From Candidatus Neomarinimicrobiota bacterium (lineage in GTDB: Bacteria > Fidelibacterota > SORT01): a DNA stretch of 64,000 nt. Location of the stretch: assembly GCA_022573815.1 (NCBI GenBank), contig JACZTG010000009.1:1-64000 (forward strand). Reading direction: 5' to 3'. This document shows, one piece after another, positions 24,940 to 35,373 of the stretch; position 1 is the first letter of the stretch; the number at the start of each line of letters is the position of its first letter. The position numbers and the translations under genes are program-made. The notes beneath the pieces were generated by a model. That model made no database searches, had not been told where the DNA came from, and was given only the letters and a program-made list of their open reading frames with translations.

Positions 24940-26202
24940 ATGAATTTAAAACAAAAAATTATCTGCCTCTCAATTCTGACATCATTCGCATCAAGCGGAG
25001 CTGATCTGTCCGCTCAGCTGCGGAAAGACCCTCGTAGTGTCGGTATGGCGGGAGCATATACCACTATCGCAAGAGATTTCTTCGCCGTCGGAGTTAATCC
25101 GGCGAATCTTGGTATTGTCAGGAATTTCATCGCAATGCAGCTGTTACAGGTGAACGTCGGAATATCAAATACCAGTTTGAGTCTATCTGAATACAATAAA
25201 TTCAACGGAGCGGATTTGGAAAAAGACAATAAGAAAGAAGAGCTGTTGTCGCTCATTCCCGAAAACGGGCTCACATTCTTCTATGATTCCTCTTTGCAGC
25301 CTATTCTCGGAAACCTATCATGGAATAATATGGCGATTTCAACGGACGTTTATGCGATTGGAGAGCTGACGGTCCCGAAGGCTCCTTTCGAAATACTTTT
25401 TAACGGGAATGAACTCGGAAGAGAATATCAGCTTGATGCGGCGGGTGAATCGCTTGTTGCCGCTGAAATAGGATTTTCCAACGGCGGAGTATTCGGAAAT
25501 ATTCTCGTTGGCTATACGACAAGAGTTATCAGAGGTATAAGCTACTTCGGAATTGATGAATCCAACGCGGGACTTCTGACCGATTCATCAGGAGTATTCA
25601 GTGAGTCTGAATACCTGGTAACGGCGTCAGCCGGTGGGTGGGGAGGTTCCTTGGATGTTGGTCTTCTGATCCTTGACGTTGGTAAATGGCATTTAGGTGC
25701 GGCTATAAATAATCTATACAGCAGAATAAGGTGGACTGATAGCAATGAGCGGATTAGATATTTCTATAATATTGATAACCTGAATCTCAACCGGGTAGCG
25801 AAAAAAGGTTTTGAATCTCTGGTTGTAGGAGGAAACGAACGAACCGAATTCAGCGAAAGTTTTTCGACCCGGCTGCCAACAATATTTCGAATGGGAGCAT
25901 CTACTACTTTTTATGAAACACTGGTGGCTATTGATTATCAACAAGGATTCAGCGACAGGTTATATGCCAGTAAGGTGGGGAAATTCGCAGTTGGATTCGA
26001 ATACTTCGGAGAGTCGAATTTCCCGGTGAGAATTGGAATCGCCGCCGGTGGTAGAGAAAAAAAAGAATTCGGTTTCGGATTCGGAATGAGGTTTATCGGG
26101 CTGCGATTTGATTTCGCCTATGCGTTAAGAGGAGGCTATACACCTTCGAATGCGAAAGGATTTGAAATTTCGGCGTCATTGTGGACAGCGCTCGGCAATT
26201 AA
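24940..26202 (+). CDS. Outer membrane protein, DUF5723/OmpP1-like
   Basis: This 420-aa protein has a signal peptide (MNLKQKIICLSILTSFASSG). The N-terminal segment DPRSVGMAGAYTTIARDFF followed by GVNPANLG is the hallmark of PorV/FadL/OmpP1-like barrels in FCB bacteria. The remainder alternates polar and aromatic residues in strand-length runs, and the C-terminus (FEISASLWTALGN) reads like a last barrel strand. The function is unknown; related proteins act as channels or as partners for surface lipoproteins. It is tightly linked to the upstream lipoprotein gene and converges on lptG with a 19-base gap. Confidence 0.75.
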   Translation: MNLKQKIICLSILTSFASSGADLSAQLRKDPRSVGMAGAYTTIARDFFAVGVNPANLGIVRNFIAMQLLQVNVGISNTSLSLSEYNKFNGADLEKDNKKEELLSLIPENGLTFFYDSSLQPILGNLSWNNMAISTDVYAIGELTVPKAPFEILFNGNELGREYQLDAAGESLVAAEIGFSNGGVFGNILVGYTTRVIRGISYFGIDESNAGLLTDSSGVFSESEYLVTASAGGWGGSLDVGLLILDVGKWHLGAAINNLYSRIRWTDSNERIRYFYNIDNLNLNRVAKKGFESLVVGGNERTEFSESFSTRLPTIFRMGASTTFYETLVAIDYQQGFSDRLYASKVGKFAVGFEYFGESNFPVRIGIAAGGREKKEFGFGFGMRFIGLRFDFAYALRGGYTPSNAKGFEISASLWTALGN

Positions 26203-30721: not shown

Positions 30722-30830
30722 TCAGAATTTGGATTCTGCTCATATAGGCAGCTATATTTCTTCTGAAATTAGTTGATTATCTACGTGATACTTATTAAGC
30801 TACATCACCAAAACCCGCATGGAGTATTGA

Positions 30831-33290
30831 TTGTATAAGTTTATAAGAGGCTCAGCGATTTCGTTGATTCTTTTTGCATTATCTTCCGTCAGCCACGCAC
30901 AACTGATAGATGGGCTCAATCTGCCTTTTGAATCGGTGGCGATTACAAACAGCGCATCGTCAATCGCACTGAATCCGGCCGGATTAGGTTTTAATCAAGG
31001 TCGAAATTTTAATTTTGCGCAATCGCACCTGTCGGACAATTTCTTCAGCGACACGGGCGTTTATTTCGCATTTGGAAATATCGGATATTCCCTTGAGTGG
31101 TTGGATGCCGCAACATCCCGAAGAAAACACACTTTTGCGTTGGCGCTGAGCAATAGCCCGAACAGTTCAATCGGTTTTGGTTACTCTCGGTTCGGCTCAG
31201 ACAGCACCAGCTATTCGGCATTGAGTCTGTTTACTGCGGGATTGAACTTCAGACCCACAAGCTGGCTTTCGCTGGCTGGAGTTGCAACTGACGTCAGAGG
31301 AAGCAGCGTTCCCGTATTAATCGGTTCGGGAGTAGGGATATTAGAAAGCAGATATCGTCTTGGTTTGGGACTGCGACCGTTGGGAGAATTTCTTACGCTC
31401 TCGGCCGACGCGAACATTAGCAAATTTGATTCGGGCAATAATACGATTTTTCAGTTCGGGTTAGAATACTGGTCCGATAAAGGATTCAGTATTAACGGTA
31501 TGCTGGACGAAGACGGTGGATTTGAATTCGGCATAGAGATTGGATTTCCCACTATAGCTGTTCGCAACAGCAACCGCTATAGCGAAAGTGGCGCTTATCT
31601 TTCGTCTGTTTCTGTGCTTGAGATGAGAAATAGAAGAAGAGCTACTTCTCTGCAACAGAAGGGAAGTTTTTTACAGTTGAAACTTTCGGGAACTGTTCCC
31701 GATGAGCCGACCTCGAGTTTCTTTTTCAGGGGAGCGAGAACCACATCGGAATGGGTTCGTCTCATTGACAGAGCGCGTGATGATAAACAGATAGGCGGAA
31801 TTATCCTGCATGTTGGCGCATTTACGGGGGGAATGTCAACCGCCGCAGAAATAAGAAACGCGCTTTTGCGGTTTAAAAGCAGTGGTAAAAAGATAATTGC
31901 ATATGCGGAAATTATGACGGTGAAAGGGTTATATGTTGCCTCAGTTGCCGAAAAAATTTATATGAATCCGTCGGGATACCTTTTCTTTGCAGGGTTGAGA
32001 GCGCAAGTGACTCACTATAAAAGTATGTTGGAAAAAATCGGCATTGAAGCGGAATTCATCAGAGTGGGAAGATATAAAAGTGCGGTTGAGCCCACAACGC
32101 TTGATTCAATGTCTTCTTCGAGAAGGGAAGAGTTGAACGCAATTCTCGATGATTTTCAGGAGAACATTTATTCGGTTATAGCCGATGGAAGAAACCTTTC
32201 AAGGGAAGATATAAGTTCGGCGGCGGAAGAGGGTCCGTATACCACCGGCGAAGCAGTTACCGCAAAGCTTATAGACGGCACTGCTTATGAAGACGAGATA
32301 GAGGATAAAGTCAAAGAACTGTTCCGCGTTAAGAACTTTTCTAAAATAACCGGGCGAACTTACGAAAAACAAAAACTTCTTGTTCGCAGATGGAATAGGA
32401 AACCTATAGTAGCGATTCTGCATCTCAGCGGCGTAATCGGAACAGGAGAAAGCCGAAAGAGTCCATTGGGCGGATCAAAAGTGCTTGGAGCAAAATCAAT
32501 AGCGCGGATGATTAAATCGCTAAGGAATAACCGAAATGTGAAAGCCATAATACTGCGAATCGACAGCGGCGGCGGCACTACGCTTGGCTCAGACATAATT
32601 TGGCGTGAGATGCATAAGACTAAAGGCGAGAAGCCGCTTATAGTCAGCTTCGGCGACATAGCGGCGTCGGGAGCGTATTATCTCGCCATGCCGGCGGATA
32701 CGATTCTTGCTGAAAAAATGAGCCTTACCGGTTCTATCGGTATATTTATGGGTAAACCGAGCTTGAAAGGACTTTATAAAAAATTAGGCATCAGCAAAGA
32801 AATGATAAAACGCGGCAAACATTCGGACATTTTTTCTGAAAATAAGAAATGGACAGATGATGAAAGAGAACTTCTCCAAAGACAGCTGAATGAGCTTTAT
32901 GATGATTTTGTGAACAAGGTTGCAGAGGGACGGGGGCTCAGCAAGACCGAGGTTGACAGTGCCGCTATGGGTCGGGTCTGGACAGGCGAAGACGCCCTCG
33001 AGCTGGGTTTAATTGATATAATCGGCGGTATCAGGAAAGCGGAAGACGTGGCTCTTGAGATGATTAATTCTACCAGAGAAGAGACTAAGTTTGTGGCGCT
33101 CTCTTCTTTTGGAGGCTCCGGATTTCGGATAGGAGCGGCATTCAGCGCGCTGTCCGACAGGTTGGTTCAAGACGCCATAGCGCCGTTTGGACCTTTAGCG
33201 GAAGATTTTCAGGAAGCAATAGAATTATTATTACTCTTGCAGGATGATCAACGTCTGTCAGTTACTCCGTACAATCTGGAAATTGAGTGA
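30831..33290 (+). CDS. sppA: SppA-type S49 signal peptide peptidase fused to an N-terminal barrel-like domain
   Basis: This 819-aa protein starts with a cleavable signal peptide (about 1-23, SSVSHAQ). Residues about 24-280 resemble a PorV/OmpP1-type outer-membrane barrel: the opening ITNSASSIALNPAGLGF is characteristic, followed by strand-like repeats. Residues about 280-800 are the tandem S49 protease of the long SppA type. The expected catalytic Lys416 (GRYKSAVEP) and Ser613 (DIAASGAYYLA) are both present. E. coli SppA instead has an N-terminal membrane anchor and no such domain. The start is TTG at 30831 with GGAG upstream. The stop overlaps murQ by four bases. The protease fold is confident; the barrel assignment is inferred. 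Confidence 0.88.
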   Translation: MYKFIRGSAISLILFALSSVSHAQLIDGLNLPFESVAITNSASSIALNPAGLGFNQGRNFNFAQSHLSDNFFSDTGVYFAFGNIGYSLEWLDAATSRRKHTFALALSNSPNSSIGFGYSRFGSDSTSYSALSLFTAGLNFRPTSWLSLAGVATDVRGSSVPVLIGSGVGILESRYRLGLGLRPLGEFLTLSADANISKFDSGNNTIFQFGLEYWSDKGFSINGMLDEDGGFEFGIEIGFPTIAVRNSNRYSESGAYLSSVSVLEMRNRRRATSLQQKGSFLQLKLSGTVPDEPTSSFFFRGARTTSEWVRLIDRARDDKQIGGIILHVGAFTGGMSTAAEIRNALLRFKSSGKKIIAYAEIMTVKGLYVASVAEKIYMNPSGYLFFAGLRAQVTHYKSMLEKIGIEAEFIRVGRYKSAVEPTTLDSMSSSRREELNAILDDFQENIYSVIADGRNLSREDISSAAEEGPYTTGEAVTAKLIDGTAYEDEIEDKVKELFRVKNFSKITGRTYEKQKLLVRRWNRKPIVAILHLSGVIGTGESRKSPLGGSKVLGAKSIARMIKSLRNNRNVKAIILRIDSGGGTTLGSDIIWREMHKTKGEKPLIVSFGDIAASGAYYLAMPADTILAEKMSLTGSIGIFMGKPSLKGLYKKLGISKEMIKRGKHSDIFSENKKWTDDERELLQRQLNELYDDFVNKVAEGRGLSKTEVDSAAMGRVWTGEDALELGLIDIIGGIRKAEDVALEMINSTREETKFVALSSFGGSGFRIGAAFSALSDRLVQDAIAPFGPLAEDFQEAIELLLLLQDDQRLSVTPYNLEIE

Positions 33291-34216
33291 CCGAAAGAAA
33301 AAAAACGATTGTTGACAGCGGCAAAATGGCATCTTTGACGACAGAGACTCGCAATCAAAAAAGTATGAACATTGACGCTATGTCCGTGCCCGAAATATTA
33401 GACCTGATAAATTCAGAAGATAAACTCATCGCAGACACCGTAGCCGAAGAAAAAGATAATATCGCAAAGGCAGTGGATTTAGTCGTAGAATCTCTCCGCA
33501 GCGGAGGGCGGCTTATCTATGCGGGAGCGGGAACGAGCGGCAGACTCGGAATATTAGACTCAACGGAAATTCCTCCTACTTTTTCTGCCGAACCGGAATT
33601 GGTGCAGGGAATTATCGCAGGCGGGATGGATGCTCTTGTTCGTTCAATCGAGGGAGCGGAAGATTACCCCGAAGACGGGAAAACCGATATTGCGGCGAAA
33701 AACATCACTGAAAAAGATGTTGTATTCGGTATTGCCACAAGCGGAAGAACGCCTTATGTCCTTGGTGCGCTTGAAAAAGCGAGAGAATTAGGAGCGAAAA
33801 CTGTGTTTCTTACCTGTAATGCTGTTGATCCCGACGATGTAGCGGCGGAGGTTATCATAACGCTCATTGTGGGAGCGGAGGTTATCACAGGCTCCACCCG
33901 TATGAAAGCGGGCACCGCCACCAAGCTGGTCTTGAATATGGTCACCACAACTTCGATGATAAAATTGGGTAAAGTATACAAAAACCTGATGGTGGACTTA
34001 AAGGCGGTGAACAACAAACTTGTTGACAGGGCGTGCAGAATACTTGAGACTATTACAGGTTTAAACTATGAGTCGGCGGAATCACTTCTGCGAGAAGCGG
34101 ATATGAATTTGAAAACCGCGCTGGTAATGCAAATCGCTTCTGTTGATAGCTCAAAAGCGTCGGAGCTGCTTGAAGAGGCGGACGGAATAATAAGAAACGC
34201 TGTTAATCTTCCATGA
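33287..34216 (+). CDS. murQ: N-acetylmuramic acid 6-phosphate etherase
   Basis: This 309-aa protein converts MurNAc-6-phosphate to GlcNAc-6-phosphate and lactate in peptidoglycan recycling. The SIS-fold signature GAGTSGRLGILDSTEIPPTF contains the catalytic Glu, and GSTRMKAGTATKLVLN is the second signature. The length is normal. The start is GTG at 33287, overlapping the sppA stop (GTGA). The stop overlaps anmK (ATGA), so sppA, murQ and anmK are translationally coupled. Confidence 0.96.
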   Translation: MTERKKTIVDSGKMASLTTETRNQKSMNIDAMSVPEILDLINSEDKLIADTVAEEKDNIAKAVDLVVESLRSGGRLIYAGAGTSGRLGILDSTEIPPTFSAEPELVQGIIAGGMDALVRSIEGAEDYPEDGKTDIAAKNITEKDVVFGIATSGRTPYVLGALEKARELGAKTVFLTCNAVDPDDVAAEVIITLIVGAEVITGSTRMKAGTATKLVLNMVTTTSMIKLGKVYKNLMVDLKAVNNKLVDRACRILETITGLNYESAESLLREADMNLKTALVMQIASVDSSKASELLEEADGIIRNAVNLP

Positions 34217-35373
34217 TAGAACAGCTTAACAATCTTTGGGAGCGCGATAAGTTAACCGTTGCCGGCTTGATTAGCGGAACATCAATGGACGGCGTGGATG
34301 TTGCTATTACCGAGCTATCGGGAAGCGGGACAGATACAAAATGGGAGATAAAGTATTTCAACAGCTATCCCTTCGAAAACGATATGCGTGAGCAAATTAA
34401 AAATTCGATCGAAGGAGGAGCCGAAGCTGTTTGCCGGCTGAACTTTGATCTTGGAAAAGAATTTTCTGACTCACTCGGGAAGGCGTTGACAGAATCGGGA
34501 ATCCCGCCAAAGGAGCTGGACCTGATCGGCTCTCACGGTCAGACGATATATCACGCGGACGGACATTCGAGTCTTCAGGTAGGTGAAGCGGCGGTGTTAG
34601 CGGAAACCTTCGGAGTTCCGGTGGTAGCGGATTTCAGAGTCAGGGACATAGCGGCGGGTGGTAACGGAGCGCCGCTTGTTCCATACGTGGATTATATTCT
34701 TTTTGGGAAAGACGGAGGAAAGTTACTGCTGAATTTAGGAGGCATAGCCAATTTCACTACCATACCATCGCCATGCAATAGCCTTGATGATATTAACGCA
34801 TGGGATACAGGACCGGCTAATATGCTTATGGATTTAGCGGCTGAATCCATATCGAGGGGCGCTCAACGGCTTGACGGGGACGGAAAATATTCTGCTGCCG
34901 GAGAGGTAAACAGCAATTGGCTTTCAGAGCTAATGGATCATCCCTATATAAGTAAGCCGCCTCCAAAATCCACAGGCAGAGAGGATTTCGGAGAGGATTA
35001 TTTTAATTCGCTGATAGTAAAATTCGAAATCAAATCTGAAGCAAGCAAACTTGATTTTATAGCGACGCTGACCCGGTTCAGCGCTGAGTCCATAAAATTT
35101 AATTTCGATGAATATGCGAGCGGTGAAAATGGAATTACGGAAGTTATCGCAAGCGGCGGAGGAACATCCAACCCTGTTCTTATGGAACATTTGGGTAATC
35201 TATTTTCGCCTATGAAAGTAAAAATGATAGACGAATATGGTATTGAATCCGATGCGAAAGAGGCTGTTGCATTTGCCATTCTTGCGAACGAATTTGTTGC
35301 AGGAGCTGATTCAAACGTTCCCAATGTAACGGGTGCGTCAAGGCAGGTATTATTAGGAAAATTGACGATTTAA
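34213..35373 (+). CDS. anmK: Anhydro-N-acetylmuramic acid kinase
   Basis: This 386-aa protein phosphorylates and opens 1,6-anhydroMurNAc, the sugar released by lytic transglycosylases, giving MurNAc-6-phosphate for MurQ. GLISGTSMDGVDVAI at the N-terminus is the family signature. GSHGQTIYH and NLGGIANFT follow, and DTGPANMLMD carries catalytic and substrate residues. The gene directly follows the gene for the next enzyme of the pathway, with a four-base overlap, which strongly supports both assignments. Confidence 0.96.
   Translation: MIEQLNNLWERDKLTVAGLISGTSMDGVDVAITELSGSGTDTKWEIKYFNSYPFENDMREQIKNSIEGGAEAVCRLNFDLGKEFSDSLGKALTESGIPPKELDLIGSHGQTIYHADGHSSLQVGEAAVLAETFGVPVVADFRVRDIAAGGNGAPLVPYVDYILFGKDGGKLLLNLGGIANFTTIPSPCNSLDDINAWDTGPANMLMDLAAESISRGAQRLDGDGKYSAAGEVNSNWLSELMDHPYISKPPPKSTGREDFGEDYFNSLIVKFEIKSEASKLDFIATLTRFSAESIKFNFDEYASGENGITEVIASGGGTSNPVLMEHLGNLFSPMKVKMIDEYGIESDAKEAVAFAILANEFVAGADSNVPNVTGASRQVLLGKLTI

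Follow-up and report, generated by a model that had tools for sequence, protein, structure and literature searches.

The window, the whole stretch of 64,000 nucleotides that was analyzed, carries on its forward strand (30831..33290, +) an open frame of 819 amino acids with a TTG start and a TGA stop. The encoded protein joins, in this order, a signal peptide, a beta domain some 240 residues long, and a complete tandem S49 protease of the SppA-67K type. The features of the locus are as follows:

30821..30824, + strand: GGAG, Shine-Dalgarno-like, 6 bases 5' of the TTG start (from the sequence)
30831..33290, + strand: barrel-SppA fusion gene (open frame; same domain order in about 100 further genomes)
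30831..30899, + strand: putative signal peptide, residues 1-23 (hydrophobic core, KD12 2.38; A or G before Q at the cleavage site conserved in homologues)
30900..31628, + strand: N-terminal beta domain, residues 24-266, with NPAGLG at 48-53 followed by 14 predicted strands (58-266) (AlphaFold2, amphipathic alternation, hhalign)
30972..30980, + strand: NPA motif, Asn48-Pro49-Ala50, also present in PorV/FadL-type barrels (no variation at N48 or P49 among 26 homologues from the phylum)
31629..31664, + strand: linker between barrel and protease, residues 267-278, low confidence (pLDDT <50 at 269-275)
31665..32378, + strand: first S49 domain, residues about 279-516, bearing Lys416 (Pfam S49 at 31872-32330; Foldseek 3bf0)
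32076..32078, + strand: catalytic Lys416 (invariant; aligned to the active-site Lys in E. coli SppA)
32406..33080, + strand: second S49 domain, residues about 526-750, bearing Ser613 (Pfam S49 at 32619-33053)
32667..32669, + strand: catalytic Ser613 (invariant; aligned to the active-site Ser in E. coli SppA)
33081..33287, + strand: C-terminal extension, residues 751-819, low confidence, with a strand-like YNLEIE tail (alignment, AlphaFold2)

Pfam placed two S49 stretches in the 819-residue protein (269 bits, E 1.5e-80), and residues 302-746 scored 317.2 bits against TIGR00705 (SppA_67K), above the family cut-off of 311.45. Alignment to E. coli SppA (PDB 3bez) identified the catalytic lysine as Lys416, the K of GTYKSAVEP (motif GxYKSAVEP), and the catalytic serine as Ser613, the S of MAASGGY (motif AASGxY); both were invariant in 26 fused homologues and also in a mixed set of fused and unfused proteins (n = 25). 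The dyad is laid out as in SppA 67K enzymes, with the lysine in the N-terminal and the serine in the C-terminal S49 domain, and both domains matched E. coli SppA (3bf0) in Foldseek with a TM score of 0.87 (by target). In all these respects the protein resembles E. coli SppA, or protease IV, and the complete tandem S49 protease claimed for it by the sequence-only reading, with Lys416 and Ser613, is borne out. The cleavable signal peptide that the same reading had claimed is plausible, based on the hydrophobic core and on a cleavage site predicted at 23/24, after SHA and before Q. No lipobox Cys follows this site, so the fusion is not a lipoprotein.

SppA of E. coli is a tetramer held in the inner membrane by a transmembrane segment at the N-terminus; its Ser-Lys site is far from the membrane and degrades released signal peptides (PMC9360617). 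The fusion differs in its anchor: the one N-terminal inner-membrane helix of SppA 67K is replaced by a predicted cleavable signal peptide followed by a predicted 14-strand domain. The mature fusions contained no transmembrane helix in 31 of 31 cases (maximum KD19 1.70), whereas among 54 unfused tandem SppAs, most of them from Bacteroidota, 53 had an N-terminal hydrophobic helix (KD19 >=1.8). Two unfused tandem SppAs, L065 and L068 (Poribacteria; record labelled Kuenenia), apparently start with a signal peptide and not a membrane anchor; SppAs of this type may have been soluble intermediates as the fusion evolved.

The resemblance of the N-terminal domain to barrels was weak by single sequence but appears strong by profile comparison and structure prediction. 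As a single sequence, the domain scored 12.7-14.3 bits (E 0.02-0.07) against PorV_fam, for which the cut-off is 90. It does not qualify for the PorV/PorQ family (NF033709, PF19572), Pfam PorV gave no match, and across Pfam and NCBIfam no model was reached above its cut-off, curated barrel families included. A Pfam match to Flavokinase (E 0.015) appeared in a single member only and was dismissed as chance. A profile built from 31 fusion N-domains (A3) and searched against the PDB gave one match up to E 10, the NPA segment of PorV (6h3i, E 0.55). When A3 was compared by hhalign with eight aligned stand-alone PorV-like proteins from the same genome, the match was at 98.2% (E 3e-14, 198 columns); searched in turn, this alignment of paralogues matched the solved PorV structure (1.7e-34) and TbuX/TodX/CymD (3e-9 to 4e-5). 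Profile homology together with the NPA motif places the domain in the PorV/FadL-like superfamily. Like PorV/PorQ and FadL/TodX/CymD (OMPP1), it has NPAGLG near the N-terminus and 14 strands (as predicted here), but those proteins are stand-alone and 300-440 residues long, whereas the fusion barrel has about 240, falls below the family cut-offs, and precedes a protease.

AlphaFold2 run on the single sequence gave a pLDDT of 36; the model used instead was built from an alignment (A2) of 25 sequences, 7 of them fusions, and its barrel part rests on these 7 only. Mean pLDDT was 83, and residues 31-260 fell in blocks of 61-92, mostly >82. Structure prediction had been put forward in the sequence-only reading as a check on some 255 barrel-like residues (24-280), with a strandless domain as the contrary outcome. 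The model contains 14 up-and-down strands within residues 58-266 (58-67, 72-81, 84-91, 97-109, 112-121, 131-140, 146-156, 167-181, 188-199, 202-214, 219-226, 231-238, 242-250, and 256-266); the barrel resemblance therefore holds by profile and prediction, over a shorter extent (24-266) than first proposed. Foldseek matched this part to a Rhodobacter-type porin (E 9.7e-7) and to FadL-type CymD (E 1.1e-6), both loosely (TM 0.40-0.42, rmsd 10-12 A).

The predicted strands carried the signals of membrane strands. Averaged over 31 fusions, the difference in hydrophobicity between alternate positions of the 14 strands was 2.10; permuting positions within strands gave 0.94 +/- 0.19, with 0 of 5000 permutations reaching 2.10, and random windows of the S49 part gave 0.93 +/- 0.20. 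With turns and loops named on the assumption of a periplasmic N-terminus, the length spread was 0-0.3 residues in five of the six turns on the periplasmic side (4-5, 6-7, 8-9, 10-11, and 12-13) and 1.2-3.0 in outer loops 5-6, 7-8, 11-12, and 13-14; turn 2-3, which varies (1.7), and outer loop 9-10, which is constant, depart from the pattern. An even number of strands would bring both ends of the barrel to the same side and thus leave the S49 part in the periplasm. Of the two placements offered earlier for the protease, facing the periplasm or the outside, the strand count and the length-invariant turns on that side favor the periplasm; the outside is unlikely.

The same domain order was widespread. 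A contig search with the protein alone gave no match; an alignment-based query found the homologues. In a set of 61 genomes, made up of 60 relatives and the window genome itself, the search located 27 tandem SppAs, all in fusion-type frames: 26 of 787-874 amino acids and one of 566, truncated where its contig ends. Single-domain SppAs of about 300 amino acids occur in this set as separate proteins beside the fusions. In a wider sample of the Neomarinimicrobiota phylum, the N-domain was detected at E <1e-15 in 54 of 149 genomes, 53 times in frames of 787-874 amino acids and once in a 373-residue frame near a contig start; apart from that frame, no stand-alone copy was found at this threshold in the 149 genomes. 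Within Myxococcota, 47 of 96 genomes matched at E <1e-12, nearly all in frames of 715-1199 amino acids. Full-length fusions were recovered from Poribacteria (L034), Zixibacteria (L036), and Myxococcota (L054, L083), and in L035; four further myxobacterial matches (L128-L131) contained S49 on reading, and a matching 862-residue frame in a Krumholzibacteriia genome is probably a fusion as well. The architecture thus recurs in at least four bacterial phyla, and the search for S49 proteins of the same order suggested by the sequence-only reading succeeded well beyond the window. Pedobacter, an Acidobacterium, and a Chlorobiota bacterium, in which only unfused SppA was found, gave no match to the N-domain. 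An artificial join of two genes by sequencing or assembly error is rejected as vanishingly improbable, given that dozens of independent genomes from several phyla agree in domain order and length and that separate N-domains are nearly absent, as noted above.

In a held-out test that left out each group once, fusion N-domains were recognized at 80-165 bits (one myxobacterial row at 30) and stand-alone PorV-like barrels at <=37 bits. The fusion barrel is thus a coherent family of its own, which favors one old fusion over repeated recruitment. A tree of the S49 part required five changes, and its well-supported branches were compatible with a single origin. Five fusions from one family of the phylum (L025-L029, family f5) lay apart from the others in this tree, weakly beside Bacteroidota (SH-aLRT 80), and had a shorter barrel domain of 225 residues; they may represent either a second fusion event or fast evolution.

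The stop codon of the fusion overlaps the GTG start of a gene for a MurQ-like MurNAc-6-phosphate etherase, followed, again with overlap, by AnmK (33287-35373, +). These peptidoglycan-recycling genes are probably co-translated with the protease, in the family of the window genome only. Gene order around the fusion was common to that family only, and no neighbor was conserved across families; the MurQ/AnmK adjacency is therefore no guide to function, and the neighborhood points to no substrate. Elsewhere in the genome (G000:C6:85841-86290) lies a 300-residue single-domain SppA, which shares the S49 fold with the fusion and differs from it in having one S49 domain and an N-terminal transmembrane helix. 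A stand-alone PorV-like barrel of 420 amino acids is encoded within the window itself (24940-26202, +; NF033709 E 2.5e-10, below cut-off); it is one of about 10 PorV-like barrels in the genome that weakly match the profile of the fusion N-domain.

We consider it probable that the fusion is an SppA anchored in the outer membrane, with its protease in the periplasm, where it would clear peptides or damaged proteins. The membrane location, orientation, oligomeric state, activity, and substrate that we infer would be as follows: the pre-protein would be exported by Sec and its signal peptide then removed; BamA-type Omp85 machinery (the window genome encodes Omp85 proteins) would presumably insert residues 24-266 into the outer membrane, where they would form a 14-strand PorV/FadL-like barrel; and the tandem S49 protease, attached after the last strand, would extend into the periplasm. 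As in E. coli SppA, a single chain would supply both members of the Ser-Lys dyad, Lys416 from the first S49 domain and Ser613 from the second, and the assembly would probably be a tetramer, held by four barrels in place of four helices. The protease would digest peptides and unfolded polypeptides that accumulate on the periplasmic face of the outer membrane, and the separate 300-residue SppA would serve the inner membrane. Relocation of the same protease chamber would be the most economical reading of function, and the job of the fusion may be the usual peptide clearance of SppA at another site rather than the different job suggested by the sequence-only reading. Some observations fit this proposal less well: longer outer loops would be expected of an outer-membrane protein, the Foldseek matches of the barrel are loose and its part of the structural alignment is limited to 7 sequences, the single sequence lies below every curated barrel cut-off, and no neighbor is conserved beyond the family.

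The barrel might do more than anchor. As a conduit or receptor that passes peptides, it would import peptides from outside for digestion or release the products; if so, the fusion would be a one-polypeptide machine for outer-membrane peptide import and digestion (or digestion and export), old and common to several phyla. The kinship of the N-domain with FadL/TodX/CymD-type channels and PorV would suit such a role, and a family as coherent as that seen in the held-out test (80-165 versus <=37 bits) suggests more than an interchangeable anchor. We nevertheless think it unlikely: the NPA segment resembles the FadL-type N-terminal plug region and may thus close the pore; the domain, with about 240 residues and short strands, is a small one; and transporter genes are not consistently adjacent to the fusion. 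At the other extreme, the N-domain could be a beta domain that is soluble or peripheral, in which case the protein would be a free periplasmic SppA. Several predicted strands of only 8-10 residues would fit, and the unfused L065 and L068 may also be soluble forms bearing a signal peptide, but the strong alternation of hydrophobicity along 14 strands, the homology to integral barrels, and the contrast between variable outer loops and length-invariant inner turns make a soluble domain very unlikely.

The sortase PorU acts with PorV, and by analogy the fusion could be an accessory of type IX secretion, its barrel docking on SprA or on cargo and its S49 part processing secreted proteins. The window genome encodes several PorV-like paralogues as well as SprA, which was found in 60 of the 61 genomes of the relatives set. 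Such near universality, however, argues against a specific link, and SprA occurs in at least 15 relatives that lack the fusion; the two do not co-occur as expected of a type IX component. The type IX genes show no neighborhood link to the fusion, the prediction puts the active site in the periplasm, and the fusion is common in Myxococcota, which to our knowledge have no type IX secretion system. We would be still more surprised to find this role than a soluble domain.

An SppA at the outer membrane would join two halves of known kinds into a combination, and an implied location, that appear to be new; the open-access papers searched contained neither a description of a barrel-SppA architecture nor fractionation data for such a protein (subscription journals and other databases may differ). 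SppA is familiar as a scavenger of signal peptides at the inner membrane, and we know of no classical periplasmic protease that is integrally anchored at the outer membrane. Proteolysis is likewise joined to an outer-membrane barrel in autotransporter proteases and omptins. The passenger of an autotransporter precedes a C-terminal barrel and ends outside, and the active site of an omptin is within the barrel, whereas in the fusion the barrel is N-terminal and the protease would be expected to remain periplasmic. In these phyla, then, the larger tandem SppA would have exchanged its helix for a barrel while the small inner-membrane SppA was kept, a swap that points to a protease posted at the outer membrane. 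Proteins of about 800 amino acids that are automatically annotated as "signal peptide peptidase SppA" would then have a location that this name conceals. The many carriers among Myxococcota make the fusion testable in cultured, genetically tractable bacteria.

The C-terminal tail (33255-33287) is also conserved. Nearly all fusions end in a strand-like P-x-x-hydrophobic motif, for example LPYxIEI; several unfused SppAs end in the same way, which places the role of the tail in the protease part.
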